From positions 1 through 64,000 of the forward strand of contig NBIV01000085.1 in assembly GCA_003194525.1 (NCBI GenBank): a stretch of 64,000 nt of DNA, written 5' to 3'. Below, piece by piece: positions 3,175 to 46,002 of this stretch; within the stretch, counting starts at the first letter, position 1; every line of letters begins with the position of its first letter. Below the pieces are notes generated by a model, which saw only the letters and a list, made by a program, of their open reading frames with translations, made no database searches and had not been told where the DNA came from. The translations under genes and the position numbers were made by a program. The DNA is from Gracilariopsis chorda. Lineage: Eukaryota; Rhodophyta; Florideophyceae; Gracilariales; Gracilariaceae.

Positions 3175-3793
3175 ACGGGTACTGACTAAAGGTAGAAAGC
3201 AGATGCAGTGGAGCAACATTCTCCAGACTGCAGCAGTTTGCCGCAAATACCAGGCCACTCAATATTCCGCGCACGTATATAGTGGGGGCCTGGGCTATAA
3301 TATTGTTGAGCTTGGTATACTGCTTTTCTATCGTGGTCTCATTTCAGATATGCGACGCAGTATTTCTTCCAACTCCACTAGTTAATCGTTGCACCAACTA
3401 AACTCCCTGATGCTGGAAGGGATTCCATCGCTAGTATCTTGTGCAGTAGTTGCTATAATGACGGGATACGTGTCATCAAACTTCTCAGCCTCCATATCAA
3501 TAAAAAGGTAGTATGGAACAGAATTATTTGACGAGCTAGAATAAATCTGTCATCTTGCGAATGATAGAGGTTTCAACTGGCCGTGCCATCATGATTTTGT
3601 TTAAGAAGACATTAAATGGTATTATGTAGACACAAGATACCCTAAGACGAACAGTGCTGTAGCCGAGGTGGCTTTTCATTGCAGAAAAGGTCCCATGAGA
3701 GGATATTATGAGTTATTACCCAGACCTAGTATGCATAACTAGAGATTATGTGCCTAGACTAATTTTCTATAAAAGCCTGAGGTCGGCGGCCTC
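3175..3793. other. Unassigned DNA left of element 1
   Basis: AT-rich sequence with no open frame above 72 codons and no recognised repeat. The final ~30 bases (3766-3793) next to the LTR resemble the primer-binding-site region of element 1 and may be part of the insertion. Confidence 0.4.
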
Positions 3794-4624
3794 TGTGTTG
3801 CAATGCCCCAAAGAGGAAAAAACACTGAAAGACGTTCGGAAATCTTCTTCTCACGAGGTGAACCCAGTTGGGTAGAGCCCTCCCAGAGGTGTCACGGCGA
3901 AGCCGGTTTGTAAGACCAGGGACACCTGTCGCGACTCGCGCAGGGAGGTGAAGGCGAAGAATCGGTATCCGCGTGAGCGGGGTGTGATCCTCAGTAGAGG
4001 TATGTTTCCACGTAAGTGGGGGTGTGTGAGCGGATGCGCACACGAGGGCCGCGGATAGCGGGAGGTGCTACCCTAAAAAGGGGAAAAGGAAGGGCGAAGA
4101 GGAGGAAAAGAGGACGATGTGAGTCGCGAGAGCGACGAGCAGATACGGCAATGCCGGTGGACAGGACTCCCTATACAGGGCGAAACACCAAATATGATTG
4201 GAACAATTATACTCCCAGTGATGGGTCCCTTTAGATGTGCAAGGGGGTTAGATGTCCCGTGGTTTACGGCGTTTCCCTCCAAGGAGGAGTAGAGTACGCG
4301 CGCAAGCGGCAACAACTAGAGCCAATTCCCCAGGTTGGGGTCCCTTGTTGGGGAAGGTTTACTGGTGCGACGGCAGTGCGCCGTCGCACTAAGTACTAGC
4401 TTCACAGAAATGGGTGTGAAAGTAATAAATAATATTAACTAAAATACTCCACATTTCGTGGCAACATCCACTTACTGTGGCCAACCGCCAATTGACCCAT
4501 AACCGTGTCCCACGTGTCCATTACCCACCATTGTGGGGCGTAGTTCATATACACACTACACAACCGATAATATCGGGAAAGCGTTCAAGTACCAGAATCC
4601 CTCCCTGAGGGCGTTTGCACTACA
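3794..4624 (-). repeat. 3' LTR of element 1 (831 bp)
   Basis: On the element's strand it runs from TGTAGTGC (at 4624) to GCAACACA (at 3794), the TG..CA ends usual for Ty3/gypsy. It matches 12896-13722 along its full length with scattered substitutions. It contains a 10-bp perfect hairpin at 4365-4389 and many 4-5 bp hairpins. Confidence 0.9.
4365..4389. other. 10-bp perfect hairpin in the LTR, conserved in three LTR copies
   Basis: GTGCGACGGC at 4365-4374 pairs perfectly with 4380-4389 around a 5-base loop. The same hairpin occurs in the 5' LTR (13465-13489, one mismatch) and perfectly in element 3 (60996-61020). It may mark an RNA processing, dimerisation or termination site in the LTR transcript; the function is inferred only from conservation. 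Confidence 0.7.
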
Positions 4625-4627
4625 TAT

Positions 4628-4636
4628 CCCCCCCCC
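4628..4636 (-). promoter_or_regulatory. Polypurine tract of element 1
   Basis: On the minus strand a run of nine G followed by ATA abuts the first base of the 3' LTR. This is where plus-strand DNA synthesis is primed. Element 2 has the same arrangement with seven G. Confidence 0.85.
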
Positions 4637-4881
4637 TAAGACGTGAAAACGACTGCAGACGCGGAGGGTTCCCAGACGAAAATGGGTGATAAAAGCGCGT
4701 ACGCTGTCTCCGGTTCTTCTTTCCTGGCATAGCTGGCTATTGTATTATAGTGTTGTGGGGAGCTAGCTGCTCCCTTGAATAAACTTTCCCGTTTTGAACG
4801 GTGATTCTCGTTTGAGTTCCCCGTCTTCGACGGACCTTTCCTTGTTATCCTTTCCTATCGCCCTCCGTTCGCGCGGCAACG

Positions 4882-7800: not shown

Positions 7801-10598
7801 GAGATCTTCACCACCGTTTAAGACGGGCACGAATCCTCGTACAGAATGGGTCGCCGAATTGTTCTCGGATCATTTCTTCCGGTGATACCGGTACAAAGTT
7901 TCCCGGTAACGGGTTCTCAGATTCATCTCGCGATGCGAGTAGTTCGTCAAAATCAGCATCCTCGTCCCAGTTTTCTGGCCCAGCCTCGACGGCACATTCC
8001 GGATCATCCGGGTCTATGGCCATGAAACATGGGACTTCATCATCCTCCGTTGGAGTGCTTCCCCACTTGTGGGTAACCGCGACAGAGCGTCGGCTTGGGT
8101 GTTCTGCGCGCGCCCTTTTTATAATTGACTTGAAAGTCATATTCCGCGAGGCGGAGTCTCCAGCGCATGAGGCGTCCCGACGGGTCGGAGATATTCATTA
8201 ACCACCTCAATGAGGAATGATCCGTGTACACGGTTGAAGTGAACTTCCATAAGGTAGGGGCGCAGAGTGGTCATCGCCCATACGACGGCGAGGCACTCTT
8301 TCTCCGATACGGAGTAGTTCCGCTCATGAACATTGAGCGAGCGCGACCAATAACCAATTGGATGTCGTTTCCCCTCTGGGGTGGTTTGAAGAAGAGCACA
8401 CCCGACTTGGTAGTCGCTCGAGCCCGTATCTACGGAGTATGGCAACCCAATTTTTGGGAGATGTAGGATTGGTGCTGATGTGACAGCCTCCTTCAAGGAG
8501 TTAAAAGGCTTCCGATTGCTTCGGGCGTAAATGTTCCCAGCTTTGGGGGTTCCCCTTTCGCAACAACGCGTTCAGGGGCGCCGCAGTATCCGAAACGTTC
8601 GGGATAAACCGTCGATAGACGTTGACCAGCCCCAAAAAGGAGCGCAGTTCCGTTTGAGTACGGGGCTCTTTCGCCTCAACGAGGGATTTGACTCGAGCTT
8701 TCTCGATCGCTAACCGCCCAGGACGGATAATGTGACCCAGATACTTCACAGTATCTGTGAAGAACTCGCATTTCCTCAACTTGAGGGTAATTCCCGCATC
8801 GCGGAGTACGGTCAGCACGTCTCGGACGTGAGTGAGATGGTCGTCCAACGAGTTGGAGAAGATGATAATATCATCAAGGTAGACCAGACAACTCCGCCAC
8901 TTAAAGCGGTTGAGTAGAATATCTACTGCACGCTGAAAGGTGCGGGGGCGTTGGTTAACCCAAATGGCATCCGCTTCGAAGCGGCTAAGTTCCTTCGTGG
9001 CAGGTGAATGTGGTTTTATCGCGATCCTCCTGTCTGACAGGTACTTGCCAGTATCCCCAATTGGCATCGAGGGCCGTGAACACGGTGGCGTCTCCAAGGG
9101 AGTCAATGCACTCGTCCATACGAGGGATAGGGTACGTGTCCCTAACGGTCACGGCATTGAGCCGGCGGTAGTCGACACAGAACCTCCAGGTTCCGTCGGC
9201 CTTCAAAGCCAGTACAACTGGGGATGCCCAGGGTGATTGAGCGGGCTCAATCACACCTGCGCGGAGCATCTTGTCCACTTGGGACTGCTCCTCTTCCTGA
9301 GCTTTCGGACCTGCCCTGTAAGGGGGTTGTGCAACCGGTCGCGCACCGGGGATTAAATCGATCCGGTGTTCCGTTGCATTAATCTCCCCAAGCGAGCCAT
9401 CCCACATTGTGGTGAATTCCCGTAACATGGTACGGAGTTTGTCGCGGTGCGACTCTGGCACGTGGCTGAAGTCCAGCGCTTCAAGTGCTTTTTCCGGATC
9501 AATCCGGTCGTTGCTCGATGGAGCATTGTCCTGTGGAACAGGTGTGGTTCGCAATTCCGAGTTACTCGGTATGTTGGACGCTGAAGTAGCGGTTTCCTAC
9601 CCCTCCTTATACTTGACGTCTTCGGACGGCGGGGCGAACTCCTCAGAAGAGGTGGTAACTCCGAGTACATCGGCGGCTGTCATCTTCGTTGGCAGCATTC
9701 CCATAGGATGGGGGGTTACACTCCCAATTAATTGGGGTTTTACCAGATACTGGGGGTGTTTGCCAAGGTTGGCAACCAATATCCGGAAAGGAACATCCGG
9801 GGAAATAGAGACAATTCCATTAGCCAGCGCCAGCTGGGATTTCTCGTACAACGAGGCGAGGGGTTGTATAACCCGAAGACCGTGTTGACGGGAATTTACC
9901 TGCACCCAGACTTGGGACTCAGGCGGTATAGAAACCGAGGCAGCGACGCGGAGCTTGGTGAACTCGCGGGATGCGGGCGATGGTTCCTGCGCAGCAGGGA
10001 GCGGAACTTGTTTCCGAGAGGACCGCTTTAGAGGGCGGCGAACAATCGAAACCGACGATCCGTCGTCAAGTTCTACACGCCTGAGGCGGGGCCTGATTGC
10101 GTCGACAAATCTGTCGAAGTAATCACATCCCAGTATCACTGGTGCTGCCAATGAACGGCAAACGATGAAGTCCAACTTCACCACAGAGGTACCAAGTCTC
10201 ACGACGAGGTCCACTGTGCCCACCGTTTGTAACGGATTGTTGTTTGCATCCGAAATGTCGGGGACCGCGTTAGAGCGGCTACGAGACCGCACAAGCGGGG
10301 GTAGCAATGATTCCACAACAAAGTTGGGACCTGCACCTGTATCCAGGACGGTGAGAAACCTCACCATAAACTGGGGATCAAGGCCAAGGTCGGCATATAC
10401 CTTATAATTGCGCTTGGCCAAGACCAAGAATCTACCGGGAATCCGTGGGTTTTTACTCCGTATCCACGGGCCAAGCAACACACCGAGGTGCGCAGAGTCC
10501 ACGTCAGCGGGGTCTTTCCTCGAGAAGACTTTCACCGGGGAGCGAGGCGAGGACGCCTCGGGCGCCAACAGCCTCATTCTTGAGGACGCCTCTCCCAA
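4882..10598 (-). pseudogene. pol: Element 1 pol: protease-RT-RNase H-integrase-chromodomain, frameshifted
   Basis: Domains in reading order. The aspartic protease (LDTGAGPNF) lies in the frame 10598-9597. The reverse transcriptase follows, with DYRRLNAVTVRD and an intact YLDDIIIFS catalytic box at about 8870. RNase H comes next (VDTGSSDYQVGCAL; TDHSSLRWLM). The integrase has a NNRKQFVSKFFQDVCRI block in which the usual catalytic Asp is Asn, and a damaged YHPQCNGQVERF. A basic Pro/Arg-rich linker leads to a C-terminal chromodomain (YRVRWYGYDPSGDTW) at about 4980-5090, one base from the frame of its last 30 residues; the stop is TAA at 4882-4884. At least seven frame changes break it, so no functional polyprotein can be made. 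It starts in a different frame from gag shortly after the gag TAA. Confidence 0.85.
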
Positions 10599-10615
10599 AG
10601 GGGAGACTCCCTCAG

Positions 10616-12790
10616 TTAGTTTTCCGCCTTCGGCGGTGGGTTGGTTTCCTCGACAAAGAGTGCTTCATCCCGTTCACGGGGGTTTCTATCTGCATAAGCG
10701 GGGGTTGCAACGGATGGTTGCGCGATCTCCCGAATCGGGGTGTATGACGCTTGCCGCGCACGCGGGGTCTGTGGTAGGGCATGGGAAAAGTCCGTTTTAG
10801 CACGGAGGTAGGAAGCCGTCGGGACGGAACGTTTCTCCTCTGGAGTGAGGGCCTCATAATTTGCCACCACCTTGGCCATATCCTTCAGTGAACAAATACA
10901 CTGAGGAGAGGTATGGCCATGGGCATAGCACAGGTGGCAAATGAGAGCCAATACAGCGACACGCGGATTATTATTCCGAGTATCGGAGAAGCGAACCGCA
11001 GGGCGGGTGTCAGTCCATCCAGGCCGTTGATACCGGGATTGACCGTTTGAAAACGGGAGTCGTTGGGGTTGAAGCCGACTGTTACCACCGTACAAAACGG
11101 GGTCTTCCGTTCCAGTATCACGGGTCATCTCCGTCGTTGACGGTAAATCACTGGTGGTTATCAACACACCATCCTCCTGCACCAAATGCACGGTACCAAA
11201 TCCCTGTCCAGGGTTCCCATCCGCGGTGAGCGGGAGTGAGGAAGCTTCGCTTTCCAGCAACAACGCCTTGGCGGATTTAGACCGATTGTTCGGAGTTCTT
11301 GCACGGAGTGCATCCCCTTCCGCTCGGGCGTGTTGGACCAGCTCGAGATAGGTGATCCTCCGCTTTTCCTCCCGATAACGGGTAAGTAAAATCCGGATTG
11401 CCGGGTCAATACCATCGGTGAACATGGTACTGCGCTCCCCAGCGGGGTATACGTTACCACATCTGTGGAAAGCCTTGTTAAGGCGCACCAAGTAATCGGT
11501 CTTGGTCTCTCCAGCACGCTGGCGTGTATCTCGCAAAGCGAGGATAGCCTGCTGAATAGCGGTGTTTGTGGCGTAGGAGCGCAGTAGATACTGCACAGCC
11601 TCCGGCCAGCAAGTAACTCCTCCCTCGGAGGCACGAGAAGACCCTCTGACAGAGTTGTATTGGTCCTCCGCCATTCCCCGTAAGAAATACGGTAAAGCCA
11701 AATAGGCTTGTCCCTCATTCATACCGAGGATATCGGCCTCCGCTACAAAGCGGGATAGGAAATCCAGTACTAGGACTGGGTCCTATCCAGTGAAATACTG
11801 GTTGCAGAGCGAGAGCTGCATTCGCTTAATGCATTCTCGCACCTTTCCCGTACCACGGGGCGTTCGTCCAAGTGACGAGTCTTCGAGCCGGTAGTACCGG
11901 TATGATAAAAGCTTCCGGTAATCTGGGTTTGTCGGTTTCAATTCCCGGAGACCGGGGTGTCTTCTCCCCTTCTGGCGGGCTGGGACCACACCTTCAGTGG
12001 CCGATGACCGCTTCGAGCGGGAGGAGTAGCCTCGCTTCTTGTCCTCTGAGTCGGAGTCCGAAGAGCTCGAGCTAACCGAATGGTTTTGGGATGAGTCCGA
12101 CGATGTCGAAGAATCGGAGTCCGAATATTTTCGGTGGTGTTTCCGTCGATGACGGCGTTTCTTCTTCCCAGAAAGCTGGTTGTTGTGCGACGCCTCGTTT
12201 ACCGGATCACCCGGGGATGGTTTGTCCATGAGGACGAACTGCTCCAGCGTCTCCAGGTGGGCACGAATCCGATCAAATCGGGCTTCAACTCCTTCGATGA
12301 AGGTGGCAGGTTGTCCCAAACTCTCCAACACGGAGTTGACGTCAGACCGTAAAATACGGAGTTCCTCGGCGATCTCCTTTACGGGGGTTGCCAAGACCAC
12401 CTCTTGGAGTGATTTTAGTTCCCCTACAAGGGTGTCATGGGCGGTCCACAGAGCGTGGACCTGGGATTCCAGGGAAGTCCCCTGGGGGGTGTTATCGCCC
12501 GTTTAACGGGGGTTTGAAGCCACGACAGCGGGAGCGGGCCGGGGTGCCTGGGGCACTGCGGCAACAGCCGGAGTCGATGCTGCATTCCCCTGCAGGGGTG
12601 ATAACGAGAGCAAAAGAAGGTTCCGGGGTTCCCGGTCGGGGGTATCATTCCGCGATGAAGCGGCCCCAGTACGGCTGGAACTTGTCCGTATAAGGATACA
12701 GGGTACGAACCGAACATCGGAGGTGTCCGCGTTGTCGCGGGAGCGACTACGCGTAACCACTGGCTCCGCATCGGAGGGACTTCTCGACAT
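10616..12790 (-). pseudogene. gag: Element 1 gag with CCHC zinc knuckle, frameshifted
   Basis: Starts at ATG 12788-12790 (MSRSPSDAEPVVTRSRSRD). An Ala/Pro-rich stretch and a helical segment around 12250-12400 follow, then a Lys/Arg run and a Ser/Asp-rich charged tract, then the capsid region (11783 down to ~11350) and a CCHC knuckle (CHLCYAHGHTSPQC, CX2CX4HX4C) near 10920. It ends at TAA 10616-10618. Frame changes occur near 12420-12500 and near 11780. The same domain plan is found in element 2 gag and in the remnant at 37508-38930. The product would form virus-like particles that package element RNA. Confidence 0.85.
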
Positions 12791-12874
12791 GAGAAAATAC
12801 CGTTACGACGGGGAACGATCACGGAACTTCCAGTAAATAAAAACAAACCTCGTAAGAGGGAAAACAAAAACCGA

Positions 12875-12892
12875 TTCTAGGTCGGGAGACCA
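12875..12892 (-). promoter_or_regulatory. Primer-binding site of element 1
   Basis: Minus strand TGGTCTCCCGACCTAGAA starts three bases after the 5' LTR. TGG pairs with the CCA end of a tRNA. The identical 18 bases occur in elements 2 and 3. I cannot name the tRNA from memory with confidence. Confidence 0.8.
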
Positions 12893-12895
12893 CTT

Positions 12896-13722
12896 TGTGG
12901 TGCAATGCCCCAAAGGGGAAAAACACCGAAAGAAGTTCGGGATCTTCCTCTCACGAGGTGAGCCCAGTTTGGTAGAGCCCTCCAAGAGGTGTCACGGCAA
13001 AGCCGGTTTGTAAGACCAGAGACACCTGTCGCGACTCGCGCAGGGAGGTGAAGGCGAAGAATCGGTATCGGCGTGAGCGGGGTGTGATCCTCAGTAGAGG
13101 TATGTTTCCACGTTAGTAGGGGTATGTGAGTGGATGCGCACACGAGGGCCGCGGGTAGCAGGAGGTGCTACCCTAAAAAGGGGAAAAAGGAAGGGCGAAG
13201 AGGAGGAAGACAGGACGATGTGAGTTGCGAGAGCGACGAACAGATACGGCAATGCCGGTGGACAGGACTCCCTATACAGGGCAAAACACCAATATGATTG
13301 GAACAATTATACTCCCAAGGATGGGCTTCTTTAGATGTGCAAGGGGGTTAGATGTCCCGTGGTTTACGGCGTTTCCCTCCAAGGAGGAGTACAGTACGCG
13401 CGCAAGCGGTAACAACTAGAGCCAATTCCCCAGGTTGGGGTCCCTTGTTGGGGAAGGTTTACTGGTGCGACGGCAGTGCGCCGTCCCACTAAGTACTAGC
13501 TTCCCAGAAATGGGTGTGAAAATAACAAATAATATTAACTAAAATACTCCACATTTCGTGTCAACATCCTCTACTGTGGCCGACCGCCAATTGACCCAAA
13601 ACCGTGTCCCACGTGTCCATGCCCACCATTTTGGGGCGTAGTTCATACACACACTACACAACCGATAATTTCGGGAAAACGATGAAGTACCAGGAATCCC
13701 TCCCTGAGGGCGTTGCAATACA
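12896..13722 (-). repeat. 5' LTR of element 1 (827 bp)
   Basis: Full-length match to 3794-4624. It runs on the minus strand from TGTATTGC at 13722 to GCACCACA at 12896. It should hold the element promoter. The right flank starts attttctccg. Confidence 0.9.
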
Positions 13723-21256: not shown

Positions 21257-22102
21257 CGGTGAGTTTGGGTAATATCATCTTTGGTAACACCTTTTCTATA
21301 TCTCTTGCCACTGTCGGCAGCAAACCGTGATAGAACATGTTTAAGATCAGGTTTATTACAGCAAAGTCTCGCTATGCTGCCAAATTCAGTGTGAAATTGA
21401 TAAGAACAGACTGATCTGGCTTATTTACACGCGGTCAACTATCGTAATCTGTTGTAATTGTCAGACGAGAAAGCCCACTGTGGTTGTTTGTAACAAAGCA
21501 TTTACGAAGGCTTTGAACTGTGCCCTTGGATACTAGACTTGCTAGTACTGTTGTGCGGATGGCAGGGCCTGCTTTCAGAGTTTCAAAGGCACGAATACAA
21601 ATCTACAACTGACCAGCACGTCTGTGTACTCGTTTCTGATACTTTGCCTCTTGCTGGCGCATCGAGGGAGGCATTGTGCCTTTTTGACAGATATTCGTGC
21701 TACCCAGCACTGAGGCTCGAGCCGCATTGCGTATGGTCTCCTACTCAGACATGGTGGCATTTGTGGTTGAATTTGAGGGCTTATGCGTACCCATGTACGC
21801 TCTCTCCCCTAGGAGAGCTGTTTAATTTTTTTGCTGCTGCTGATGTCTGAGTCGTGAATGGGGCATTTCGGTTGAGAGCAAAGTGGCGTAAAATCGATCA
21901 AAATATTTCCCTGTTTCTATGGAACCCTTTGAGAAGGGTGCAGAAGTAGCTGCTCAATCGCAAATTTGACAGGTGTCGCGATTTTGGCCAAACGACTTCA
22001 CCAAATTTGGTCTATGTTGCTAGAGTGGGGTGCATTGAAATCTGAAACATGTGTGAACATGAACTTCTAACGGCTTTCTGGTGACAACCAAATCCCATTT
22101 TG
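21257..22102. other. Unassigned DNA between the MULE region and element 2
   Basis: One 103-codon plus frame (21539-21850) has no recognisable motif. The last five bases (TTTTG) are the target duplication of element 2. Nothing else is identified. Confidence 0.35.
22098..22102. repeat. 5-bp target-site duplication of element 2, left copy
   Basis: TTTTG immediately before the LTR; the same five bases follow the right LTR at 32515-32519. Five bases is the standard Ty3/gypsy duplication, which confirms the element ends. Confidence 0.9.
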
Positions 22103-22665
22103 TGTGGTACAACCGCTAGGGGAGCGAGGCCACTCGGTAGCGATGTGGATGTCCACGAAATACCCTGATAATAGGGGTGCCGCTTGCGGCGGCAAGGCCT
22201 AGGGGTGCTTCTGTCCGGGTAACCGGGGTTCGGTCGCGTGAGCACGGGTGTAGCACGGGAATCCGTGTGGGGTGGAAGCTTAGCGGGAGACCGCAAGTTA
22301 TAACTAGTCCGGAGGTCCGGTTAAGGCTCCAGGAACTACGAACTTGGGTTCCGTGGCCCATGATCTTCCAGTTTACTGAGGTGCGACCCTTCCCGTCACT
22401 AAGTACTGCGGAGTGCCGCACTAGCTACAGTAAATAATATTAGAAATATCTAGATAATTCTAAGTAGATGGCCCGTGGCCAGCACCTACTGCGCACATCC
22501 CAAATAAAGTGGAAATCCACGTATGAACCGCACCCGCTCGTGCATCGCTCAGTGTTCCCTTGTGACAACCCTCGGGTTACCGAAAACACGTGTGACGTAT
22601 GAACCGTCGCGTATCGACTTGGTGATTTCCGCACCTCGGATGACCGAGTTACTCCTTGCATCACA
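22103..22665 (-). repeat. 3' LTR of element 2 (563 bp)
   Basis: On the minus strand TGTGATGCAAGG at 22665 to GTTGTACCACA at 22103. It equals 31952-32514 in length. It contains several perfect short hairpins, for example CCGG-GTAA-CCGG and GCGG-GAGA-CCGC on the plus strand. Confidence 0.95.
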
Positions 22666-22668
22666 TAT

Positions 22669-22675
22669 CCCCCCC
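22669..22675 (-). promoter_or_regulatory. Polypurine tract of element 2
   Basis: Minus-strand AACGGGGGGGATA abuts the 3' LTR start at 22665. It is the primer site for plus-strand DNA synthesis and fixes the transcription direction of gag-pol as minus. Confidence 0.85.
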
Positions 22676-22706
22676 GTTAAGAGCGGAGTATATCGGCGAA
22701 TTCGCT

Positions 22707-22713
22707 TATATAA
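22707..22713 (+). promoter_or_regulatory. TATATAA box just upstream of the antisense gene
   Basis: TATATAA ends 10 bases before the ATG at 22724. That is too close for a standard TATA box feeding this ATG unless the leader is extremely short or a later ATG is used. The start could instead come from an antisense promoter inside the LTR. Confidence 0.3.
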
Positions 22714-22723
22714 GGAGCAAACA

Positions 22724-24451
22724 ATGTCGCGGTATCGCAGCATTCGGTCTGCTTCTCCGCCTCACTCCTGTGAAAACCAAGCTCTCATCGAACACGACAC
22801 TGATACCGGCCACCTCAGCGCTTCTGAATTCCAACTAACGATGCAACCATCTGAGAATCCCCAGCAACCCCCTTCGCACCCCTCTGCATCAAACGCCGGA
22901 CCCGTTCCTACCACGGCATCAGTGCCACTGCCTCAGCCTCAGCCTTTGCCATACATACCGGCGTATGTCTCGAATACCGCGGTTATCCGCCCTCCTCAGC
23001 GACGCATCCATCAGTCACTCCCGCACCCTGCGGATTTAGTGGGCATTAATCCCTTAAACCGCCCCGAGGCGTTTGCTAATGCTCCGTGGTTTCATCCACA
23101 AGGGGTGCGCGATGAGGGCCTCCTCGATCAATACCAGGTCGCTGGGCGTCTTTCCGATGGACTCCCGCTTCATGCGGTGTATACTGACGACTGGCTCGCG
23201 CACTGCCCGCTCCCGGACAACGCGATAGCGCGGTATGGCAACGAGCGTATGCACGAAGCGCGGGTGCGCTTCACCAAGCTGGTGTATCAGCGGATACGCC
23301 GCATCATTGGAACAGTCCCTCTGGACGATGCGTGGGAATTCGACACCTGGGTGGCCAGAACCAACGGCGAGGCTTACGCCTACGTAGAGCAACTCGGGGA
23401 TCTCCACACTCGACGTTGGCGAGGGATCCGTGGCGTTTGCCAGGAGGCGCTCTGTTTCCAGCAACCACTTCTTCGCGCGGAGTTCCGCTACTTGCGCAAG
23501 CGCGACATCCCTTTCTGGGAATTCGCTCGTTGGGAGCGACGAACCAGGTCAAGACTGCGGTACCTCGTTCCATATCAAATGGTCGAGGTTGATCGCGTTC
23601 TGGCCTCTGCTCGGCTTGGCCGATACGTTCCAATTCCAGATCACTGGGCTGCAATTGAGGCTCCTCGGGGTTGCCCAGTGGAGATTCCTCCGGTTATTAC
23701 TTACTTAGGCTCTCACCTAGTGAATGATCCCTATTGCGGGCTTTGGATCATGGCATGCACGGAATTCATTGCCAAAATGGCAGTCTTCATCCTGTGGGAT
23801 GCGTACGACACCTACCGGGTGTGGTACATGAGTCCGACGGCTCGGGAGTACGCGAGAAATCTCGATTTGTCTCTGGTGCTTGGCTCTCACGCCAACCAGG
23901 ATGACTTCCGTCACCTTATGAACGTCATGGACCAGATAAACTGGTACTTGGTACCAGCTGATCAAACAGCGCGAGGTAATCGTTCGCGACAGCGCGAGTA
24001 TTCCCCCGGTCGGACGGCTGATGCCAGAGACTTCGTATGGTATGATCCATGGACCCGTCAGCATCTGACATCCGAGCAGGCTCGGTATTTGCGGCAAAAC
24101 CCGCGGGCTCAACCGGCTACCCAGCCAACTGGCTATATTTTCGAGCCGGATGCGGCCGTGATGGACTATATGTCCGAGGATGGAGATGCTGATTACAGCG
24201 AAGAGCCATACGAGATGGATACCGAAGCTCCGATTCCGGAAGAGGACACCACGGTCAACCCGTTACCTGTGATCCTGGGCTACCAGCAGCCTCAGCAGAA
24301 TTCCGCGGATGATGAGTCTGAGCTCGAGCTCTTGAGGAGGTTCCTCGAAGAGGCGGGGGTTCCCTTAACTTCCATTCAGGGGGACCGTCAGCATCTCCTG
24401 GGGTTGCTCCGTGCCAATCTCGGTCAGGATCCGAGTGAGCCGAGCGCTTAA
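22724..24451 (+). CDS. Antisense accessory protein of element 2, unknown family (575 aa)
   Basis: An uninterrupted 575-codon frame on the strand opposite gag-pol, wholly inside the internal domain between the polypurine tract and the end of pol. The frame is open upstream to ATG 22523 inside the LTR (642 codons), but the ATG at 22724 (MSRYRSIRSASPP) lies just outside the LTR and is preferred. Residues ~1-95 are Ser/Pro/Gln-rich. ~100-430 look like a folded, Trp/Tyr/Arg-rich helical domain (DDWLAHCPLPDNAIARYGNE; WEFDTWVARTNGEAYAYVEQ). ~430-575 are disordered with an acidic tract (EDGDADYSEEPYEMDTEAP) and end in a Leu/Glu-rich helix. There is no signal peptide, membrane segment, Cys/His finger or known catalytic motif. 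AATAAA follows 76 bases after the stop, giving a convergent gene pair with pol. Element 1 has no counterpart. I do not recognise the family; it could be a captured host gene or a regulator of the element. Confidence 0.75.
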   Translation: MSRYRSIRSASPPHSCENQALIEHDTDTGHLSASEFQLTMQPSENPQQPPSHPSASNAGPVPTTASVPLPQPQPLPYIPAYVSNTAVIRPPQRRIHQSLPHPADLVGINPLNRPEAFANAPWFHPQGVRDEGLLDQYQVAGRLSDGLPLHAVYTDDWLAHCPLPDNAIARYGNERMHEARVRFTKLVYQRIRRIIGTVPLDDAWEFDTWVARTNGEAYAYVEQLGDLHTRRWRGIRGVCQEALCFQQPLLRAEFRYLRKRDIPFWEFARWERRTRSRLRYLVPYQMVEVDRVLASARLGRYVPIPDHWAAIEAPRGCPVEIPPVITYLGSHLVNDPYCGLWIMACTEFIAKMAVFILWDAYDTYRVWYMSPTAREYARNLDLSLVLGSHANQDDFRHLMNVMDQINWYLVPADQTARGNRSRQREYSPGRTADARDFVWYDPWTRQHLTSEQARYLRQNPRAQPATQPTGYIFEPDAAVMDYMSEDGDADYSEEPYEMDTEAPIPEEDTTVNPLPVILGYQQPQQNSADDESELELLRRFLEEAGVPLTSIQGDRQHLLGLLRANLGQDPSEPSA

Positions 24452-24526
24452 ACGCGATTCGATTGTGATAGCACATGTACCGGTGGCGTCCTGGCCTAGC
24501 ACCAGTATATAGGGCGATCCCTAATC

Positions 24527-24532
24527 AATAAA
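24527..24532 (+). terminator. AATAAA poly(A) signal of the antisense gene
   Basis: Plus-strand AATAAA between the antisense stop (24451) and the convergent pol stop (24630). Its position suits 3' end formation of a plus-strand transcript without running into pol. Confidence 0.55.
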
Positions 24533-24629
24533 CTAGTTAAATAGAACTGTACTGCCTTAGACTGCGCTTCTTCGCCTTTCCTTATTCATGGGTCTCCACT
24601 TCTTTTTTTCCACGCTAACGTGACGGTCC

Positions 24630-27600
24630 CTAGACAACTTGGGAGTCCCCCATGATACCGACGAGAGCGTCACCCAAGTTCGCCGGTAACGGCATTCTCC
24701 TCCAGCGGTGATACCGCACGACATGGGATCGGGAGATATTCTCCATCGGTTCCCATGTGTCCGCTTCAGGCGGGTAATTGTACCATCGAATTCGATAACG
24801 GGGCTTGAGGTCCTCCTCGTCATACGCGTGATCGGCGATTCGGTCCATCACGTATTCTTGCGGAGAGCCGCGCTCGTCTCGCTCTACTGAGCTCCCGTTC
24901 TCCGGGGACTCCCGACTATCCTCCGGCGGAGTAGCGGGACTTTTCAGCTCCTTGGCTGTTTTTGCCGGTGCGGGTTTTCGTTCTCCGCTAAGTGATTTCG
25001 GGCTATTCCCGGTTCGTGTTACTCCCGGCTGGTCCGGACGGTTTAGCGAAGATGCAGCCTCTTCTGCTGCTGTACGCCTGAGGTGTACCTCGCCATGCGA
25101 GTGACTTGGAGTCGAGATAATCTCGGGGTGACTCCTCTGGGGAGTCTTGTCGGCAAGGGCCGGGGTCACGGCGGATCCGTCCGCTGGACGCAGCTTCCTC
25201 TCTTCCACCGTTGTGGGGTCAGCGCTTACGCTCTTTTCCTTTGGAGATGTTCTCCGTTGTAGGGGCAGGTTCGGTGGGCCTTCTTTCTGCTTGCTGTCGT
25301 CAGCGGAATCGTCGTCTTCTTCACGCATTTGTGGTTGCTGTGGGGGCGGATGCTTTCCGTTGGGAGGCGGTTTGGTGTGAGTGACACTCTGGTTCGGCCA
25401 ATCAGAGGCCTTCCAAGATGTGGGCTTGGCCACGGGGTACGGGTGGTCACGTGACGCTTCCCCTGTGCGCAGGATCTGGTTCACATAACCGTCACGCGCT
25501 GATATACAGTGGAGTGTGACACTTACAGTACCATTTGGTGGCGGTTGTGCGCCGGATATACCGGGAGGCGGAACGTCAGACAATTCCGGGCTGCTGATTG
25601 GCTGAGAGATGACACTTGTCGTCGATTCGCCTTGAGTGGCCCCCACTGGCTGTGATGCGGCGGCTTGTACGGTCGTTCCGTCTCGCACGGGTTCAGGGGC
25701 TGTTACCACACGGTCTCGTGAAATTCGTTCGACGTTATCGTCTTCCTTGCGGATAACCACCGTCTCTGAGTCGAGTTCGACTACTTCATATGGACCAGAT
25801 ACTACTGGGGATAGCTTATGTCGCCTCCGGAGTTCACTCCTTCCTTCTCGCGTCGTAGCGTCCGGACGCTCAATACGCACGAACACGTGACCTCCGACCT
25901 GGATATCCGGAATAATGGGGCGTAGTGTGGCATCATAATTCCGTTTATAACGGGCTTGGGCCTTCGCTAGCTCTCTTGCGGCCTGTTCCGCGCGTCGTCT
26001 CAGGTCATCCCTCCACTTGAGGTGGTGTGAAGCTGGTGTCGGCGCCTCCAACTCGCTGTCTTGGTCCAGTCTGACTGGTAGAGCCGGCGGGCAGCGCGCC
26101 AAGACCAGTTCGAAGGGTGCCATTCTCGTCGGCGAGTGAACTTGCGTATTGTACGCGTAGCACAGCGTGTCTGTATACAAGTCCCAATCCTTGGGGTGGT
26201 CCGTCACGTAATGCCGAAGAGCGGCGAGTAGCGTGCGATTGAAACGCTCCACCTGCCGGTTGTCTGCGGATGGTACGTCGTGGTAAACACGTTCTTCACG
26301 CCGAGAATGCGGCATACGTCCTGAAAGAACTTCGCAACGAATTGCTTCTCATTATCTGATATTAGATTCAACGGTGGTCCGTAGACGTAGACCCACTCTC
26401 TGATGAAAGCTTGCGCGATTGCCGCGGCCGTGATCCGCTTCAGCGGGACTGTCCGAGTCAGCTTCGAGAAGCGATCCGTGATTACCAGAAGGTATCTATA
26501 GCCTCGCTTTGTGCAAATCAGTTCCCCTAAGATGTCAATGCTGACGTACTCTAAAGGCGCTTTCGCCAGGAACAGCTTCAGGGGACGTTTCCGTTTCCAC
26601 AGCTTAATGCGATTCTTCGCGCAGGTTGTACACAACTTTGCCGTGGCGTGGCAGTCCATTGCCAATGTTGGCCAATAAAAGTCTTTCCTGAGAGTCCAGT
26701 ATAACTTTGTGCCACCTGGATGTCCAAATAACTGAGAGTAGTGTGCGAGATGCAGTACTCTGCTCTTCAAGACGTGTGGAATCACGATCTGGTCCTGTGC
26801 TTCGACAGTTCGAACTAGCACTCCTTGCTTGTCAAGGCCAAAGGGTAACCCCTCCCCCCCGTTAAGACGGGAGCGTATGGAGGTGCAGAAGGCGTCTGCG
26901 TGTTGCTCACGTAGAAGCTCTTCTAACGAGATACGCTCGAGTTGTTCCGCCGGTGCGGTGTCTGTTGCTTGTGCAATTAGCAAGTCGAGGGTGAAGTCAT
27001 CGTCGTAATCCGTGCAATGTTGCGCGCCGGCATCGGCTTGGAGATGAGGTGAGTCCTCAGCGAAGAGACAAGGGATGTCATCATCGATTTCAGTTTGGGT
27101 TTCTCCCAGTGTTAAGAGCCGTGATAAGGCGTCGGCATGGACGTTGGAGCGCCCCTTTTTGTACTTGACTTCGAAGTCGAATTCCGAGAGGCGTAATCGC
27201 CATCGCATTAAGCGTCCCGACGGTTCGGATATAGAAAGTAGCCATCTGAGACATGAATGGTCCGTATTGACGGTAAAATGCACCCCTTGAAGGTATGGTC
27301 GGAGGGTCGTAAGAGCCCAGACAACCGCAAGGCATTCCTTTTCAGATACCGAGTAGTTTTGTTCCGCTGATTGCAGCGATCTGGACCAATAACCAATAGG
27401 TTTGCGTTCGCCGTCAGGATATTCATGGAAATGGGCACAGCCCACTTGATATTCACTGGAGTCAGTGTCGACCACAAAGGGGAGTCCCAGTTTTGGGAGG
27501 GCCAATACGGGTGCTGTGATCAGCGTCTTCTTGAGCGATTCGAAGGCATCCGTCTCGGCTTCAACGAATTGTTTGAGTTGGACGGGCTGTCCTTTCTTCA

Positions 27601-29548
27601 ATAATGCGTTCAACGGCGCGGCTCTGTGTGAGTAGCGCGGGACAAATCGTCGATAGACGTCACATAACCCCAGAAAGGCACGCAATTGTGTTTGTGTTTG
27701 CGGGGGTGTGGCTTTGCGGATAGCCGCGGTTGCGACTTCGTCCATCTCCAGCTGTCGTGGTTTGATCAAATGACCAAGGTACTTGACTTTATCCGTGAAC
27801 CATTCACATTTCTTTAGCTTCAAAGTAATCCCAGCTGACTGGAGCTTTTTTAGTATCAACTCGACGTCTTCAAAATGGTTCTCCATGTCCTTACTGAAAA
27901 TGATGATATTATCGAGATATACCAAGCAGGTATTCCACTTGTAGGATGACAAGATGATGTCCAGGGCACGCTGGAACGTAGCTGGCGCATTAGTGAGGCC
28001 AAACGGCATGCGTTTGAATCGGTAAAGACCGGCGTGGAACACGAAGGCCGTTTTGTCGCGGTCATCATCCGCGATGGGCACCTGCCAGTACTCGGAATTA
28101 GCGTCCAGCGTAGTAAATACGGTGGCATCACCGAGGCTGTCGATGCATTCATCCATTCGGGGTAAGGGATACGTATCCCTTACGGTCACTGCGTTCAGTT
28201 TCCTGTAATCCACGCAAAAGCGTAATGAACCATCCGTCTTCGGGACGAGCACTACTGGGGAGGCCGAAGCGGATTGTGCGCGCTCAATGACCCCCTTTTC
28301 AAGCATGTCATCCACATGCTGTTGTTCGATTTCTCGCGTTCGGGGTCCAGCTCTGTAGGGATGCTGTGCAATGGGTCTTGTACCCGGCAAGAGATCAATA
28401 TGATGCCCTGTTGCGGCGATTTCACCGAGGTTCCCATCCCACATGGACGAGTATTTCTGCAGTAATCTGCGTAAGCGATCCCGGTACTCCTCCGGTACAT
28501 GGGAGAGGTCCAATTCGTCAACTGACGGGAGCGCTTTAGCTAATTCCCGGTCTCCCGGTGTCGGTACTTGCTCCAGTTCAGCGGAAGTTGACAGCGAGAT
28601 CTCGTCCGGCAGGGATATCCCTAATACTTCCGCTAGGGAAATGTGCGTCGGTATGAGTACCGTGGGATGTGGTAAAGCCACGGCAACCATCTGATTCTCG
28701 TGAAGTTTCACAGGATGATTGGTGAAGTTGCTAATCAACAATCGGAAGGGTCTGTTTGGTTGTACCTGGGCAACGCCGTTGGCGGCGGTAATTCCATTAC
28801 GTTCGTACGTGTGTGATAAGGGTTGAATCACGATAAGTCCGTGGCGTTGTGTGGTTACGGTGACCCACGTCTGAGATTTTGGAGGAAGCTCCACCTGTTC
28901 CGCTACCTTAATCTTTGGAGAGGTTCTCCCACTAGGTCCAGCGTTCTGGGATGGGGGCAACGGCCCTGAATTGGCAGCCGGTTGCAGGGGTCTGCGCACT
29001 ATTGGTACGGTGCTTCCGTCATCCATCTCCACTTGCCGAAGGCGGGGTCTTATTGCTTCCACACAGCGGTCACAGTAGTCACATCCAAGAACAACTTGGG
29101 CAGCCAGTGTCGAGCAGACAATGAACTCCAACATGACGACATGGTTTCCCAAACGGACGACGAGGCGTATGGTACCTAGACATTCTAGAGGATTCTTGTT
29201 TGCGTCCCGGAAATCCGGTAGAGGACCACTTCGAATGCGGGTCCGATCATGAGGGCTGAGTTCAGATACCCTGATAAAATTCGGTCCTGCGCCGGTATCG
29301 AGTACCGCAAGACGTCGCGACAACAAGTGTCGATTTGTGCCGATATCGGCGTATACTTTATAGTTACGTTTAGCCATAACCATAATAGGGTCTGTTCGTC
29401 TCCCAGGGCACTGGTATCGTCGCCATGGTCGACTTAATCCGCAGTCGAACTGCGTTTGACTTCCGTGCGAGCCGGACTTTCCTGGCCTAAGGAGAACCTT
29501 GGGCCTCCATACCGGGGAGCGGGGAGGTCGGTCCCCCTCAGCCGGCAC
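24630..29548 (-). pseudogene. pol: Element 2 pol: protease-RT-RNase H-integrase-chromodomain, nearly intact
   Basis: Frame 29548-26204 (1114 codons) carries the aspartic protease (VLDTGAGPNF, ~residue 84) and the reverse transcriptase (DYRKLNAVTVRDTYPLPR). The RT catalytic box reads YLDNIIIFS instead of YLDD (Asn codon 27908-27910). RNase H (VVDTDSSEYQVGCA; NTDHSCLRWL) follows, then the integrase HHCC finger and its first acidic residues (YVSIDILGEL; SDNEKQFVAKFFQDV). A one-base loss at about 26254-26257 moves the integrase Glu (QVERFNRTL) to frame 26315-24630. That frame continues with a Pro/Ser-rich linker and a C-terminal chromodomain (YRIRWYNYPPEADTWEPMEN), which in this group targets integration to modified histones. 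The frame overlaps the gag end by ~115 bases in the -1 register. Two independent defects make this copy non-autonomous. Confidence 0.9.
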
Positions 29549-31737
29549 AATGGAATCGGACTGTGCCGACTCCCTTGGGGCTCCCCCCGTAAGTTTTCCG
29601 ACTTATTTGGAGCATATGCCGTTACGGCCACTGCGGGCGGGCCGCGAATCTGTCCGGCTTGAGAATGCTCCACATTCTGGGTCGTCGGAATTCCGCCCAC
29701 GCGGTTCGGGTCACCGGCGACGAACGCCTTGGCTTTCCAATACATGGTGGCCGGTACTCTGCTGCGTTCAGCGTCTGTCAGTGACTCATAATTCGAGATA
29801 ACTCGTTCCAAATCTCGAGCAGGTAGAGTACACTCCGCTGCTGAGTGGTGCCTCCTGTAGCACACGTGGCAGATGAGCCCTTCTCGGCGGGGCCGAAATG
29901 CAGCTGCTGAGCGGTAATTTCGGCGTTGGTCCACCCATCCAGGCTTACTGGGCGTGAACCCGCCTTGTGGGGGAACCACTCCAGCCTGACGCTGACGTCT
30001 GATATCAGCTAGGAGGAGCTCGGACTCCTCCGTAGGGGTATCTGTAGTTGGCAACTCCGTCGTCGGAACTGAGGTGTCTGGATAATCCAGGTAATGAAGC
30101 GCTTCTTCCAGCGTGTGGGTTTGGTCCCGTGGCATCAGGGATGACGACCGAGAATCCTCGACGGTCTCAGCATATAGGGCTATGGCCTTTGGTTTAGCCG
30201 AACGAACCGGCGAGTCCTTGGGCTTTACGAATGCCGTTGTACGGCGCTGTTGTCCGCGGGCACGGACCGCATCCCCTTCTGCTTGGGCATATTGGACGAG
30301 TTCCAAAAAGGTCATGCTGGCATGCTTTTCTCGCTGACGAGCCACTAACGATTTGATCACTGGATCTAACCCATCGACGAATAGCGTCATCTTCTCATCC
30401 GTGGAGTGCACGTCCCCGCACCTGGTGGCTGCGTTATTCAGCCTTGAGCTGTATTCTACCTCCTTTTCTCCAGGTTTATGGGTTACATCCCGAAGGGTGA
30501 GGATAGCCTCGCGGATGGCATTGGAGGTTGCGTAACTTTGCAGGAGATATTGCACGCCCTCAGGCCAGTTGGTGACTCCACCTTCGTCGACCGTGAGCGA
30601 GCCGCTCACTGCTCGATACTGTTGTAGGGCAAACCCTGTCAAGAAATGTGGTAGAGCCACCAAAGCCTGCGCTTCGCTCATACCAAGCATGTCTGCCTCG
30701 GTCACAAACCGGTAAAGGAAATCAAAGATTAAGATCGGGTCCTTCCCGTCGAACTTGAGATCACTCATTCCTATCTTCAGTCTCTTGATCTGATCCTTAA
30801 CTCTTCCCGTTTCGCGACTCGTTCGCTTGAGTATGCGTATTTTCAAACGATACAGACGGTAGTCTATAATTCTCCGATAAAGCGGATTAGTACAAGGTAG
30901 CACCTTGAGTCCCTTCTTTGCCGGGCCTCTCTTGTGGCGTATCCAAGCGGATGTTCCGCGGTGCTTAGATTTCTTCCTCGATTTACGAGTGTCATCGTCA
31001 GAGGAAGATTCCTCTGACGATTCCTCTTCAGATTCTTCTGAACTTGATCGGCTCTCCTCGGATTCCTCGGAATCTTCCGAATCTGAATTCAAGGCGGAGC
31101 TCCGCATCTTTCCACGTTTCGATTTCGACTTCTTCGAAAGGGTTTCCACTGGTGTGGGTCGTTCCACCTCCGTCTCGAGCGGGATGTTAACAGCACTCTG
31201 CGTGTGTACCGCTGCTTCCACCCTCTCAAGGCGAGGGTTGACCCGGGTGAGGACTTCCTCGACGTCAACGGGTAGTCCCGATATTACCCCGGAGGCATTG
31301 CCTTGGCGTTCCATGACCTGATTGAGGTCCTCTCGGAGTGTCCGAACAGTAGCCGTGATCTGCGGATCGTGGGCTCAGCTCGCCAAGGCGTGGTGTTCCA
31401 CACGCAGGCGGTCCAAGGCACCAGTCAACGCAGTAATCTGCAATTCCATTTCCGTGAGACGGGTTCGATGGGAGTCGGACTCCTTCTGGAGTCGTTGCAC
31501 CTCTGTGCGTAACTTCTCCTCAGTGGAGGTTCCTGCGGCGTTAGCCGCCATGTTCGCTTCCGGAGCGGGTACTTCAGCCTCTGCTGGGATGACGCCAGTT
31601 GATCGGGCCCTTGATCGTACGGCTTGCCTATAAAGGCGGTTACCGGCTTCAACCGAAGTTCCAAGCCGCTGCGTCGGCGGGGGTTGTGCAGAGGGACCCG
31701 GTTGTCCGGAGCTCGACTGACTTCGAGTCTGGACCAT
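29434..31737 (-). pseudogene. gag: Element 2 gag with one in-frame TGA
   Basis: Starts at ATG 31735-31737 (MVQTRSQ). Residues ~70-118 form a heptad-rich coiled coil (EVQRLQKESDSHRTRLTEME). An in-frame TGA at 31375-31377 interrupts it, after which the same frame runs open to 29434. After the coiled coil come a Lys-rich and a Ser/Glu tract (SEDSEESEESRSSSEESEEE), the capsid region (LKFDGKDPILIFDFLYRF; LPHFLTGFALQQYRAVSG), a disordered region and one CCHC knuckle (CHVCYRRHHSAAEC). The total is 767 codons including the stop. The downstream ATG at 31314 could still give a 626-residue protein with capsid and knuckle. The TGA may be a mutation or read through; nothing in the sequence decides. Confidence 0.9.
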
Positions 31738-31928
31738 CTCCAGTACCTCTGTGCAACCTGTTGCGATATTTTCCCAGTCTTCTGGACGTCCTGTGTAGAG
31801 TCCGGCAGCCGGAGAACAAGTATGAAAATCGAGCTATGGCTCTTTTCAGCCGTCAGACTCGAGATGACTCGGTACTTCCGTAACCGGATTCCAAACGTGG
31901 CAATCCACGAGACAATGATGAAGCACAC

Positions 31929-31946
31929 TTCTAGGTCGGGAGACCA
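31929..31946 (-). promoter_or_regulatory. Primer-binding site of element 2
   Basis: Minus-strand TGGTCTCCCGACCTAGAA begins five bases inside the 5' LTR end and is identical to the sites of elements 1 and 3, although the LTRs of the two families do not align. Confidence 0.85.
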
Positions 31947-31951
31947 ATTGG

Positions 31952-32514
31952 TGTGGTACAACCACTAGGGGCGCGAGGCCACTCGGTAGCGATGTGGATG
32001 TCCACGAAATACCCTGATAATAGGGGTGCCGCTTGCGGCGGCAAGGCCTAGGGGTGCTTCTGTCCGGGTAACCGGGGTTCGGTCGCGTGAGCATGGGTGT
32101 AGCACGGGAATCCATGTGGGGTGGAAGCTTAGCGGGAGACCGCAAGTTATAACTAGTCCGGAGGTCCGGTTAAGTCTCCAGGAAATAGGAACTTGGGTTC
32201 CGTGCCCCATGATCTTCCAGTTTACTGAGGTGCGACCCTTTCCGTCACTAAGTACTGCGGAGTGCCGCACTAGCTACAGTGAATAATATTAGAAATATCT
32301 AGATAATTCTAAGTAGATGGCCCGTGGCCAGCACCTACTGCGCACATCCCAAATAAAGTGGAAATCCACGTATGAACCGCACTCGCTCGTGCATCGCTCA
32401 GTGTCCCCTTGTGACAACCCTCGGGTTACCGAAAACACGTGTGACGTATGAACCGTCGCGTATCGACTTGGTGATTTCCGCACCTCGGATGACCGAGTTA
32501 CTCCTTGCATCACA
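31952..32514 (-). repeat. 5' LTR of element 2 (563 bp)
   Basis: About 98% identical to 22103-22665 by eye. It is followed by the target duplication TTTTG at 32515-32519. It should carry the gag-pol promoter. Confidence 0.95.
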
Positions 32515-32519
32515 TTTTG
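32515..32519. repeat. 5-bp target-site duplication of element 2, right copy
   Basis: TTTTG, matching 22098-22102. Confidence 0.9.
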
Positions 32520-35050: not shown

Positions 35051-37310
35051 TACAGTCGCTACTAACCATTTCGGGTGGGTTCACAAGGTAATCTTAGCTG
35101 CATGGGATCCGTTTCAAAACCTATCGATGTGTGCCTATTCTGCTCGGTTCCACCAAGCTGAGAGTTTCAACTGGGCAATGCTCCATTCTCACACGCACAA
35201 TTGCGGTCTGCCAAGGAGCGCTACAACTGGTTGTGGTCACTTCCTGCGATTGTAGTGGTCGCAGTTCTTTAGATTCAAACGTCTTAAGGATAGACCTCTG
35301 CCATGGAGAGGACTGGGACAGAGTCCTAGAAATAATGATGCGAATTTTGTCTAGACCTTTCTTTCTTGCTGTCATTCAAGATGTGCTTCCTATCCAATAC
35401 AACTTCGATGTCTCGAGGTATCGCACATTCGGCAGAGTATCCTATGGGGATAAACTGGCTCAGTTTGATACAGATGATTTTGAAACATAGTTGCCAGTAC
35501 CAATTGACTACAATAGGATCTGTTAGGTGACGCTCATAATCCCTGAGAAGTTTCGGATTTTCCGACTTCCTTGAAGGCATGCAGCGTTATCTAGAAACTT
35601 TTGGTCTAAACGCAAGGCGTGTTCCCGACCCAGGTATCTAAGTCTCTATACCCACATTGAAACCGAAAGTTATCTACCGCAACATTCAGGGGTCACATCA
35701 CTTTGCACAGTTACTGCCATGGTAGTGTCAGGTTGAGGTAAGCAAGTGCTGTTTTCCAGAACTGCCTCCCTGTTTGACTTATGAAAGTTCTTTCATCACT
35801 GATGAATCAAAAACCATTTATTGGTCATGATCAATACCCAGTTTTTGGAACCTCACTTATCCCCGCAGAGAAAGCTTCAGCATGGCGGTTTTTTGCATCT
35901 GGGAAGCGTACGATAAATAAGGCCTTCAGTTCTTAGTGCCCATTTTTTGGAGTACTATCAAACAGGTTATCCTGATAGTCTCGTTGGAATTCCAGGAGAA
36001 CGTGGACAGAATGTTATAAATCTTGTTTCTGATTGACAAGGTCAACTGTGATACCATTCCGTAGAATAACTGTGGTCACATTGAAATCTTCGTTATCAGT
36101 ACCCTGGTCGCCGGCATACAACTGTGGGAGATTTTATTTATTATGACCCATATGTGGTTGCAACCGGGTCTCATGGTCACCTATTGGAACAACGCAGTTT
36201 TCCTACCATATTCATTTTTGATGACGATTAAAACCCATCAGTATATATCAATGATCCAATGATGGATGATGAGCGCAATGAGAGTGGCAGACTTAATCAT
36301 GGATCGGTTCTGGAGCCGAGTAGTCCGAACAAAGCTGAAAATTCAAACCAATCGTGTGCTCGCAAGCACTGGAGTTTTATTACTATGATGCGTGTGTCTC
36401 AATCTCGAGAACGAGTAGTGGTCAAAATGGATCCTCATGTCATGGCGCAGGGCGGAAAACTACAACAACCTAGAATTCACGGGGACTCCGGACATGATCA
36501 ATGTTGAGGAGCTCCTAGCTCTTGTGGCAGACTATTTTCACTGAACCAGTCACTCAGGAGGAGTTCCAACGTTCATAAAACTGGTATTTAGCATTCTTAC
36601 ATTCACATCCCAGTGATAGTTCTTGTGATAGCTTCTATAGAAACCCAAACTCGTGATACTTCGCTCTTTCTTTTTTCATTAATTTTCTTCATTTTCCAGT
36701 TCATAGAGTTCTACATCATCAATAACTTAGTTTTTTTGCAAAAATAATTTGGTTTAAACTTTAGTCCGGTATTATCCTAACAACTAAAGGTCATCAACTT
36801 TCTGTTTCATATGTGGGGACCTTCTCCTTCTCCTTTCCTCGACCTTCTCCAATTTGCGACCAAATTCCGTTCTTCAGGGATGTAATAAACTGATTTCTGA
36901 CCGCCAAGGCAGTGTCAAGGGCATCATACCAGTTGATTAGTATGCAAAGTAGGTTAGAGAGGATAACTAATTCAAGTACTGGTTTATGTATTTATTTTAG
37001 ATCGTTAGTGACACTACTCTACTGTAGCAGGGGCAATGACACAAGAGCGGGCTCCAACTTATGCCATGTAGCAGATTACACCTGATATTGAGTCTCACTC
37101 ATCCTTAAGTTCGCTGCAGTGCTCCCACTCCAAGAGCGTTAAAGGAAAGGCCCTGTTCGCGAAGTGTGATACGATTTGGTTTTTACATTCAAAGTTCTGC
37201 TTCAGTTAAGATTATTCAGGCTCTCCTAGCATATTCGCACCGTACGACCAACACTACCCATTGGTTACGGCTGGCGCGCCTGGCTACCTCACACCCATAG
37301 GGGGTTTTTA
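35051..37310. other. Degenerate sequence inside the old gag-bearing remnant
   Basis: Plus-strand fragments such as IYYDPYVVATGSHG near 36130 and NLEFTGTPDMINVEELLALV near 36470-36530 look like decayed coding sequence but match nothing I know. 36540-37300 shows nothing. Confidence 0.3.
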
Positions 37311-45755: not shown

Positions 45756-45866
45756 CTTGAGGGTAAATTCTAGCTTTAGTACACAATCTTCAGCACATTA
45801 CAAATTAGGTAAAATAGAAACGTATCCTATTCAAACAACGAAATAAATAACGAAAAGGAAAACCTA

Positions 45867-46002
45867 CGTATACCCTTCTACCAAAAATAGTTATAGTTTA
45901 CGTAGTGCATAAGGAAACTACGCAGTGTGGCAAACGTATACCTTTCAGAAAACTTTTTAATATATTTAGTTTATACGTAGGGTACACAGTTATACAAATA
46001 TA
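45867..46002 (+). repeat. 68-bp tandem repeat, about two decayed units (Helitron A)
   Basis: Starts cgtataccct...aaaaatagttatagtttacg. It corresponds to the five-unit array of Helitron B at 52071-52410. Confidence 0.6.

Follow-up and report, generated by a model that had tools for sequence, protein, structure and literature searches.

An antisense accessory gene in chromodomain retrotransposons of the red alga Gracilariopsis chorda and a sister subfamily without it

Ty3/Gypsy retrotransposons with a chromodomain in the red alga Gracilariopsis chorda carry an antisense accessory gene (aORF), whose position and strand do not vary among the copies read. Comparison of these copies demonstrates, at the level of sequence, that the aORF is protein-coding and under purifying selection across the group, diverging in step with pol, and also that one sister subfamily lost the gene by a single common deletion yet amplified. 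The predicted core of the protein matches no solved fold, and the element in which the gene was first noticed is described below together with its relatives in the same genome.

The window, a stretch of 64,000 nucleotides (positions 1 to 64,000 of contig NBIV01000085.1, forward strand), contains on its minus strand a 10,412-bp Ty3/Gypsy LTR retrotransposon with a chromodomain (22103–32514), which is flanked by the 5-bp target duplication TTTTG (22098–22102 and 32515–32519). Its 563-bp LTRs, the 3' LTR at 22103–22665 (TGTG...CACA) and the 5' LTR at 31952–32514, both on the minus strand, differ at 12 of 563 positions (2.1%; K2P 0.022); the first-pass annotation, made from the letters of the DNA, had called the element a young LTR retrotransposon. 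A candidate primer binding site, TGGTCTCCCGACC, lies 5 nt inside the 5' LTR (31934–31946, minus strand), and the 3' polypurine tract (22666–22681, minus strand), with a minus-strand G7 (plus 22669–22675), abuts the 3' LTR. Between these, likewise on the minus strand, are gag (29434–31314; PF03732, E 7.7e-6), pol with RT, RNase H and the integrase zinc finger and core (26204–29548; domain matches), and the C-terminal part of integrase with the chromodomain at ~24723–24854 (24630–26315; PF00385, E 3.4e-9), so that the element reads gag, RT, RNase H, integrase and C-terminal chromodomain. The Ty3/Gypsy traits found are RT, RNase H and integrase in Gypsy order and the integrase C-terminal chromodomain PF00385, and the nearest solved structure to the RT is that of Ty3 RT; chromodomain Gypsy elements also exist outside the chromoviruses, according to the accessible text of PMC12477816. 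The pol and chromodomain frames of the window element are separate at ~26.2–26.3 kb, and in copy L027 the two matches share one frame at the corresponding point.

The aORF (22724–24451, plus strand) is 575 codons long, or 642 when counted from an upstream ATG at 22523, and lies antisense to gag-pol, converging on pol and flanked by the chromodomain end of pol on one side and the 3' polypurine tract on the other. Its length, its coordinates and, through mapping of LTRs and domains, its placement had all been described correctly at first pass, as had an AATAAA at 24527–24532 (plus strand), 76 bases past the stop. As ATG 22523 falls inside the 3' LTR, the likelier start is ATG 22724, which is 58 bp inside the 3' LTR edge and just beyond the polypurine tract. 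AATAAA or ATTAAA is found 76–190 bp past the stop in 9 of the 12 aORF copies listed, and neither occurs within 330 bp after the stop in L009, L010 and L011. C-runs start 33–56 bp ahead of the ATG in 10 of 12 aORF starts listed, with L011 and L012 as exceptions. A TATA-like motif stands just 17 bp before the ATG in the window family, and outside that family none was seen in the 130 bp before the aORF ATG.

Chance antisense frames elsewhere in these elements had been noted at first pass to stay below ~200 codons, and we found no further plus-strand ORF of at least 200 aa within 22103–32514. Across the aORF interval the five remaining frames have 11–31 stops each, with a longest open run of 181 codons, and all three minus frames of the window copy hold at least 11 stops. 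When the 1964-bp stretch 22666–24629 was simulated 5000 times with a first-order model and read on both strands, the longest open run was 383 codons, compared with 594 observed from stop to stop. Chance is excluded because open frames recur in relatives from the same genome that have 39–73% identity in the core.

Searches of 5.8 billion proteins gave 22, 32 and 30 relatives of the aORF protein; those with names are from Agarophyton chilense and Gracilariopsis chorda, and the others are marked 'ena' or 'lgn' and were taken as environmental or read-archive assemblies. Two G. chorda database proteins match the window's assembly at 100% identity, BWQ96_08668 over 290 of 290 residues on contig C205 and BWQ96_03215 over residues 1–491, which makes G. 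chorda (Gracilariales) the very probable host. Genomic context, meaning convergence with pol, was read in the gene's own genome only (91.3-Mb assembly), where at least 80 matches to the window protein are listed from the best 76 of 1523 candidates. Among these listed matches the identities form groups, with the young family at ~94–96%, followed by ~63%, 48–58% and 35–40%. The aORF adjoins a convergent chromodomain end in all 28 loci (L001–L028), which represent 24 distinct copies picked by their aORF matches. Seen from the side of pol, 43 of 104 scored RT matches have a convergent aORF downstream among the matches listed, and none of the 104 has a same-strand aORF within 9 kb among those matches. 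At 92–100% RT identity, which is the window family, 16 of 16 RT matches are paired with a listed aORF match, some of them partial, and at 75–83% identity 8 of 12 are paired among the matches listed. Of 76 listed RT matches at 68–69%, those of a second clade, 31 have an aORF match or gene start (an internally deleted copy on C96 counts among them) and six have the deletion scar described below, while the remaining 39 receive no assignment from the matches listed.

The search for the same ORF in other copies, suggested at first pass, found it in the window family, but stops interrupt seven of 15 near-full-length copies; the other eight, window included, are without a stop (at least 94% identity). 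In the second clade, that of L019, L020 and L024, 62 of 74 scored aORF matches are without a stop, although these are the best-scoring ones and hence biased to open frames. Identities of aORF and pol are strongly correlated (Pearson 0.97 over 171 pairs of 19 loci, pairs that are not independent of each other). Two pairs break this correlation, L011 and L012 (pol 0.89 but aORF 0.62) and L015 and L019 (pol 0.91 but aORF 0.98), which suggests exchange between lineages. Likewise, pol is 88–90% identical but the aORF 62–64% identical between L011/L023 and L012/L013, and going by these alignments the two lineages have likely recombined near the pol end.

We read the expected aORF place for 11 of the 61 RT matches that had no listed aORF. 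A full-length aORF was present in L035 (no stop) and L030 (one stop), two pieces covering most of the gene in L033, a partial aORF at a contig end in L031, a private deletion in L029 and fragments in L034 and L037. No aORF match was found at the expected place in L032, L036, L038 and L039, of which L036 proved to be pol from the L020 clade. Longer stretches around L037, L038 and L039 (L040, L041 and L042, respectively) revealed a 59-residue aORF remnant, integrase matches that are cut short, and a chromodomain end with no match to the aORF. The C96 copy (L029; C96:146600–148700) has a private internal deletion that removes most of the aORF and resembles a deletion between short repeats, because the alignment pieces overlap by 17 bp; its RT sits in an 1885-codon open frame. 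The window itself holds a decayed distant relative of the aORF with internal stops (35215–36297, plus strand; ~26% identity, tblastn E 1e-19), beside which nothing matched the pol of the window element.

Selection was assessed from pN/pS between copies. In the L019/L020/L024 clade the three pairs gave 0.22, 0.13 and 0.25 for the aORF (binomial P 2e-10, 3e-12 and 2e-8, respectively), and values in the alternative frames of this DNA were at least 0.88, bar one antisense frame at 0.18–0.33 that is taken to share third positions with the aORF. The window copy and L009 likewise gave 0.14, with synonymous sites near saturation. However, four young pairs of the window family gave 0.53–0.75, which is not significantly below 1 (P 0.05–0.28), and other frames there gave similar values, down to 0.42; two more close pairs were weak, with 0.78 for L009–L010 and 1.13 for L016–L017. 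Because of this weak signal within the window's own family, selection is established across the wider group and not for the window's young family. The comparison of dN/dS between copies that the first-pass annotation had proposed therefore came out in favour of a gene in the L019/L020/L024 clade (0.13–0.25) and not in the window family, and its view of the frame as coding for an accessory protein is upheld by the relatives and by purifying selection across the group.

AlphaFold predicts disorder for residues 1–96 and 477–528 of the protein and, between them, a mostly helical core of ~380 residues (97–476; 23012–24151, plus strand), which when folded alone reached a pLDDT of 93 and a pTM of 0.91. 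After the disordered linker there is a predicted C-terminal two-helix segment (residues 528–565; 24305–24418, plus strand). Fifty-five positions are kept at 90% or more, counted where the alignment column holds at least 25 letters, and these include ten Arg, nine Pro, six Tyr, six Gly and five Trp. Basic clusters in the core occur only at residues 251–281, and the conservation of arginine may be structural.

No homologous domain had been recognised in the protein at first pass, and the profile and structure searches that followed agree: with a threshold of E 0.01 the aORF proteins hit neither a Pfam nor an NCBIfam family, and none of the relatives from the 5.8-billion-protein searches bears a precomputed Pfam domain. 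Among PDB sequences there was no significant relative (best E 0.28 and 0.15), and Foldseek searches of the PDB, run to E 10 with both the whole and the core model, gave no matching fold. A viral structure library, searched with the whole model, gave nothing useful (best E 0.77). The predicted core possibly represents a new fold, as judged by comparison with the PDB and, for the whole model, with viral models.

A second, older LTR element in the window (3790–13722, outer limits approximate; minus strand) belongs to the L020 clade, and four pieces of it are 89–91% identical to L020 at the DNA level. It is without the segment corresponding to L020 6387–8166 and lacks nearly the whole aORF, of which it retains a 16-codon vestige that ends in TAG. 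When up to three mismatches are allowed, the 25-base scar of this deletion (4708–4732, plus strand) is present at 153 genomic places, with none for the reversed control, and the clade's intact aORF start is present at 295 (control 0), where both counts depend on the mismatch limits and the 295 may include copies broken downstream, such as the C96 copy with its private deletion. By these two pattern counts the deletion subfamily makes up about a third of its clade. The junction was spanned at 94% or more by 40 of 40 scored matches, the best of 872 candidates, window included. Six of 100 scars listed lie 3.2–3.3 kb from a scored RT match on the opposite strand, and of these RT matches three sit in 1875-codon open frames and one in a frame of 1800. 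In addition, seventeen scar–gag pairs have the gag 5.6–5.9 kb off on the opposite strand; on C66 one gag lies close to a scar on the same strand and is probably part of a different element.

We take presence of the gene to be ancestral because the deeper groups examined carry the aORF. As the gene-less subfamily has multiplied, the aORF is not needed in cis, and its product would therefore act in trans or else restrain the element; loss of the gene in a thriving daughter group also speaks against an essential role. Copies lacking the ORF had been named beforehand as evidence that would count against a gene, and they do exist as this one sister subfamily, but not in the window family, where all 16 RT matches at 92–100% are paired with a listed aORF match. 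Two further observations concern the second element: a 368-aa frame in its gag region (10616–11722) scores at least 111 matches across the genome at 93–100%, its own among them, and matches no Pfam family at E 0.01, and an inverted piece related to the element is present at 60762–64000.

We give about even chances to an explanation in which the aORF is a genuine gene of the element, transcribed antisense from the 3' LTR, whose soluble product modulates the element in trans, with gene-less copies either served or escaped. Transcription would start within the 3' LTR or at its border, from an antisense promoter, as suggested by the distance of the aORF ATG from that LTR (58 bp), and the gene's own poly(A) signal would end the transcript before it reached pol. 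The product would be soluble and act in trans; its conserved helical core, rich in arginine, may bind nucleic acid, or a protein of the element or host, and the product may modulate expression or integration of the element. Gene-less elements could then be served in trans by their gene-keeping siblings or be freed from restraint, and we weight trans supply above escape from a brake because the aORF has been retained over deep divergence. That an antisense gene of new fold controls the element in trans, with the gene-less third of the clade being cheaters or escapees, is put forward as a tentative proposal.

If the protein were instead a copy-number brake, the gene-less daughter group would be an escape lineage, and this would suit both the spread of the common deletion (153 scars, compared with 295 intact starts) and the long gag-pol frames beside some scars; it nevertheless seems unlikely to us, as retention over deep divergence (39–73% core identity) is easier explained by a benefit to the element and gene-less copies are still fewer. 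The first-pass annotation had also raised a captured host gene, which an ancestor of these elements would have taken up. Capture has precedents among retroelements (PMC7264820, accessible text), and the core does form a compact domain of ~380 residues. However, no homologue was recognised outside such elements among database matches whose context is unreadable, neither as a Pfam or NCBIfam family at E 0.01, a level at which distant host relatives could escape detection, nor as a precomputed domain on the relatives, and capture is in our judgement improbable.

The hydropathy maximum of the protein is 1.75, at residues 339–357, which is slightly over the usual cut-off of 1.6 for membrane segments and lies inside a core helix that bears charged residues. 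Such a peak, together with a site between pol and the 3' LTR where env-like genes of other elements are placed (PMC7264820, accessible text), could point to a structural or entry-like protein, an antisense analogue of env or capsid for cell-to-cell spread of particles. The charged helix argues against this, as does the orientation, since env would stand in sense orientation after pol and the aORF runs the opposite way, and the aORF profile is not similar to the element's own gag or integrase end; we hold such a function to be quite improbable. Finally, that the antisense RNA matters rather than the protein, pairing with gag-pol RNA and feeding small-RNA silencing with the frame as a by-product, would fit the overlap of the convergent genes on the genomic RNA and a similar role proposed for plant antisense aORFs (PMC7264820, accessible text), but neither purifying selection at the amino-acid level nor a confidently folded, conserved core is expected of a pure RNA function, and we consider it very improbable.

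Returning to the explanation by a trans-acting element gene, antisense accessory genes are already known as a kind from Grande, RIRE2 and Retand, and what is new here is an unmatched protein family in red-algal chromodomain elements and a sister subfamily that is without the gene through one common deletion. The Pfam scans of the aORF gave no match to the domains of Retand (transposase 28) or PvRetro13 (SMC), and the TRP28 domain of Retand, PF04195, was without a match at E 0.01 in 35 members and was not among the 12 weak families seen in 44 aORF members at E 1. Likewise, HBZ of HTLV-1 is a bZIP protein, while no bZIP family was matched by aORF proteins in the Pfam scans and the aORF core is predicted to be a large globular domain. 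The likeness to HBZ and APH-2, the antisense genes of HTLV-1/2, which use a 3' LTR promoter (PMC7264820, accessible text), is in position only.

Plant antisense aORFs, as far as the accessible text of PMC7264820 describes them, share with the present gene its place and orientation and the occurrence of many copies with divergent relatives; here, however, the host is a red alga, the integrase has a chromodomain and there is a large gene-less daughter group. As in the aORF-3R positional class, the gene is antisense and stands between pol and the 3' LTR, and most copies of the window family have it (16 of 16 RT matches at 92–100% are paired with a listed aORF match); the second clade has 295 intact starts and 153 gene-less scars. 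Retand is described as a non-chromovirus in the same text (PMC7264820); the integrase end of the window element bears the chromodomain PF00385. ORF3 of LTR elements in bdelloid rotifers is also an extra gene beside gag and pol, but the ORF3 types that the accessible text reports are enzymes or env-like proteins (PMC5408684), and the aORF has no known domain. A search of accessible literature, mostly outside subscription journals, found no red-algal retrotransposon reported to carry an antisense gene. According to the accessible text of an older survey (PMC3350952), retrotransposon chromodomains were not seen in any of three red algae, whereas that of PMC3605345 states that chromoviruses occur in red algae.

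In their accessible parts, a review and a plant survey call the role of antisense accessory genes in LTR elements open (PMC7264820, PMC11963269). The present case is far from plants and has a confidently predicted core without a solved-fold match, and because gene-bearing and gene-less sister groups occur in one genome, the role of the aORF can be tested by comparison.

The window has several other features. Two Helitron-like direct copies (45188–50692 and 51392–57544, plus strand), ~6.4 kb apart, are 77–92% identical in pieces, and frames of the second copy match Helitron_like_N and PIF1 helicase. A tandem array with a 68-bp unit (51992–52459) lies near the start of the second copy. In addition, an alpha/beta hydrolase frame at 1237–2247 (plus strand) is probably a host gene.
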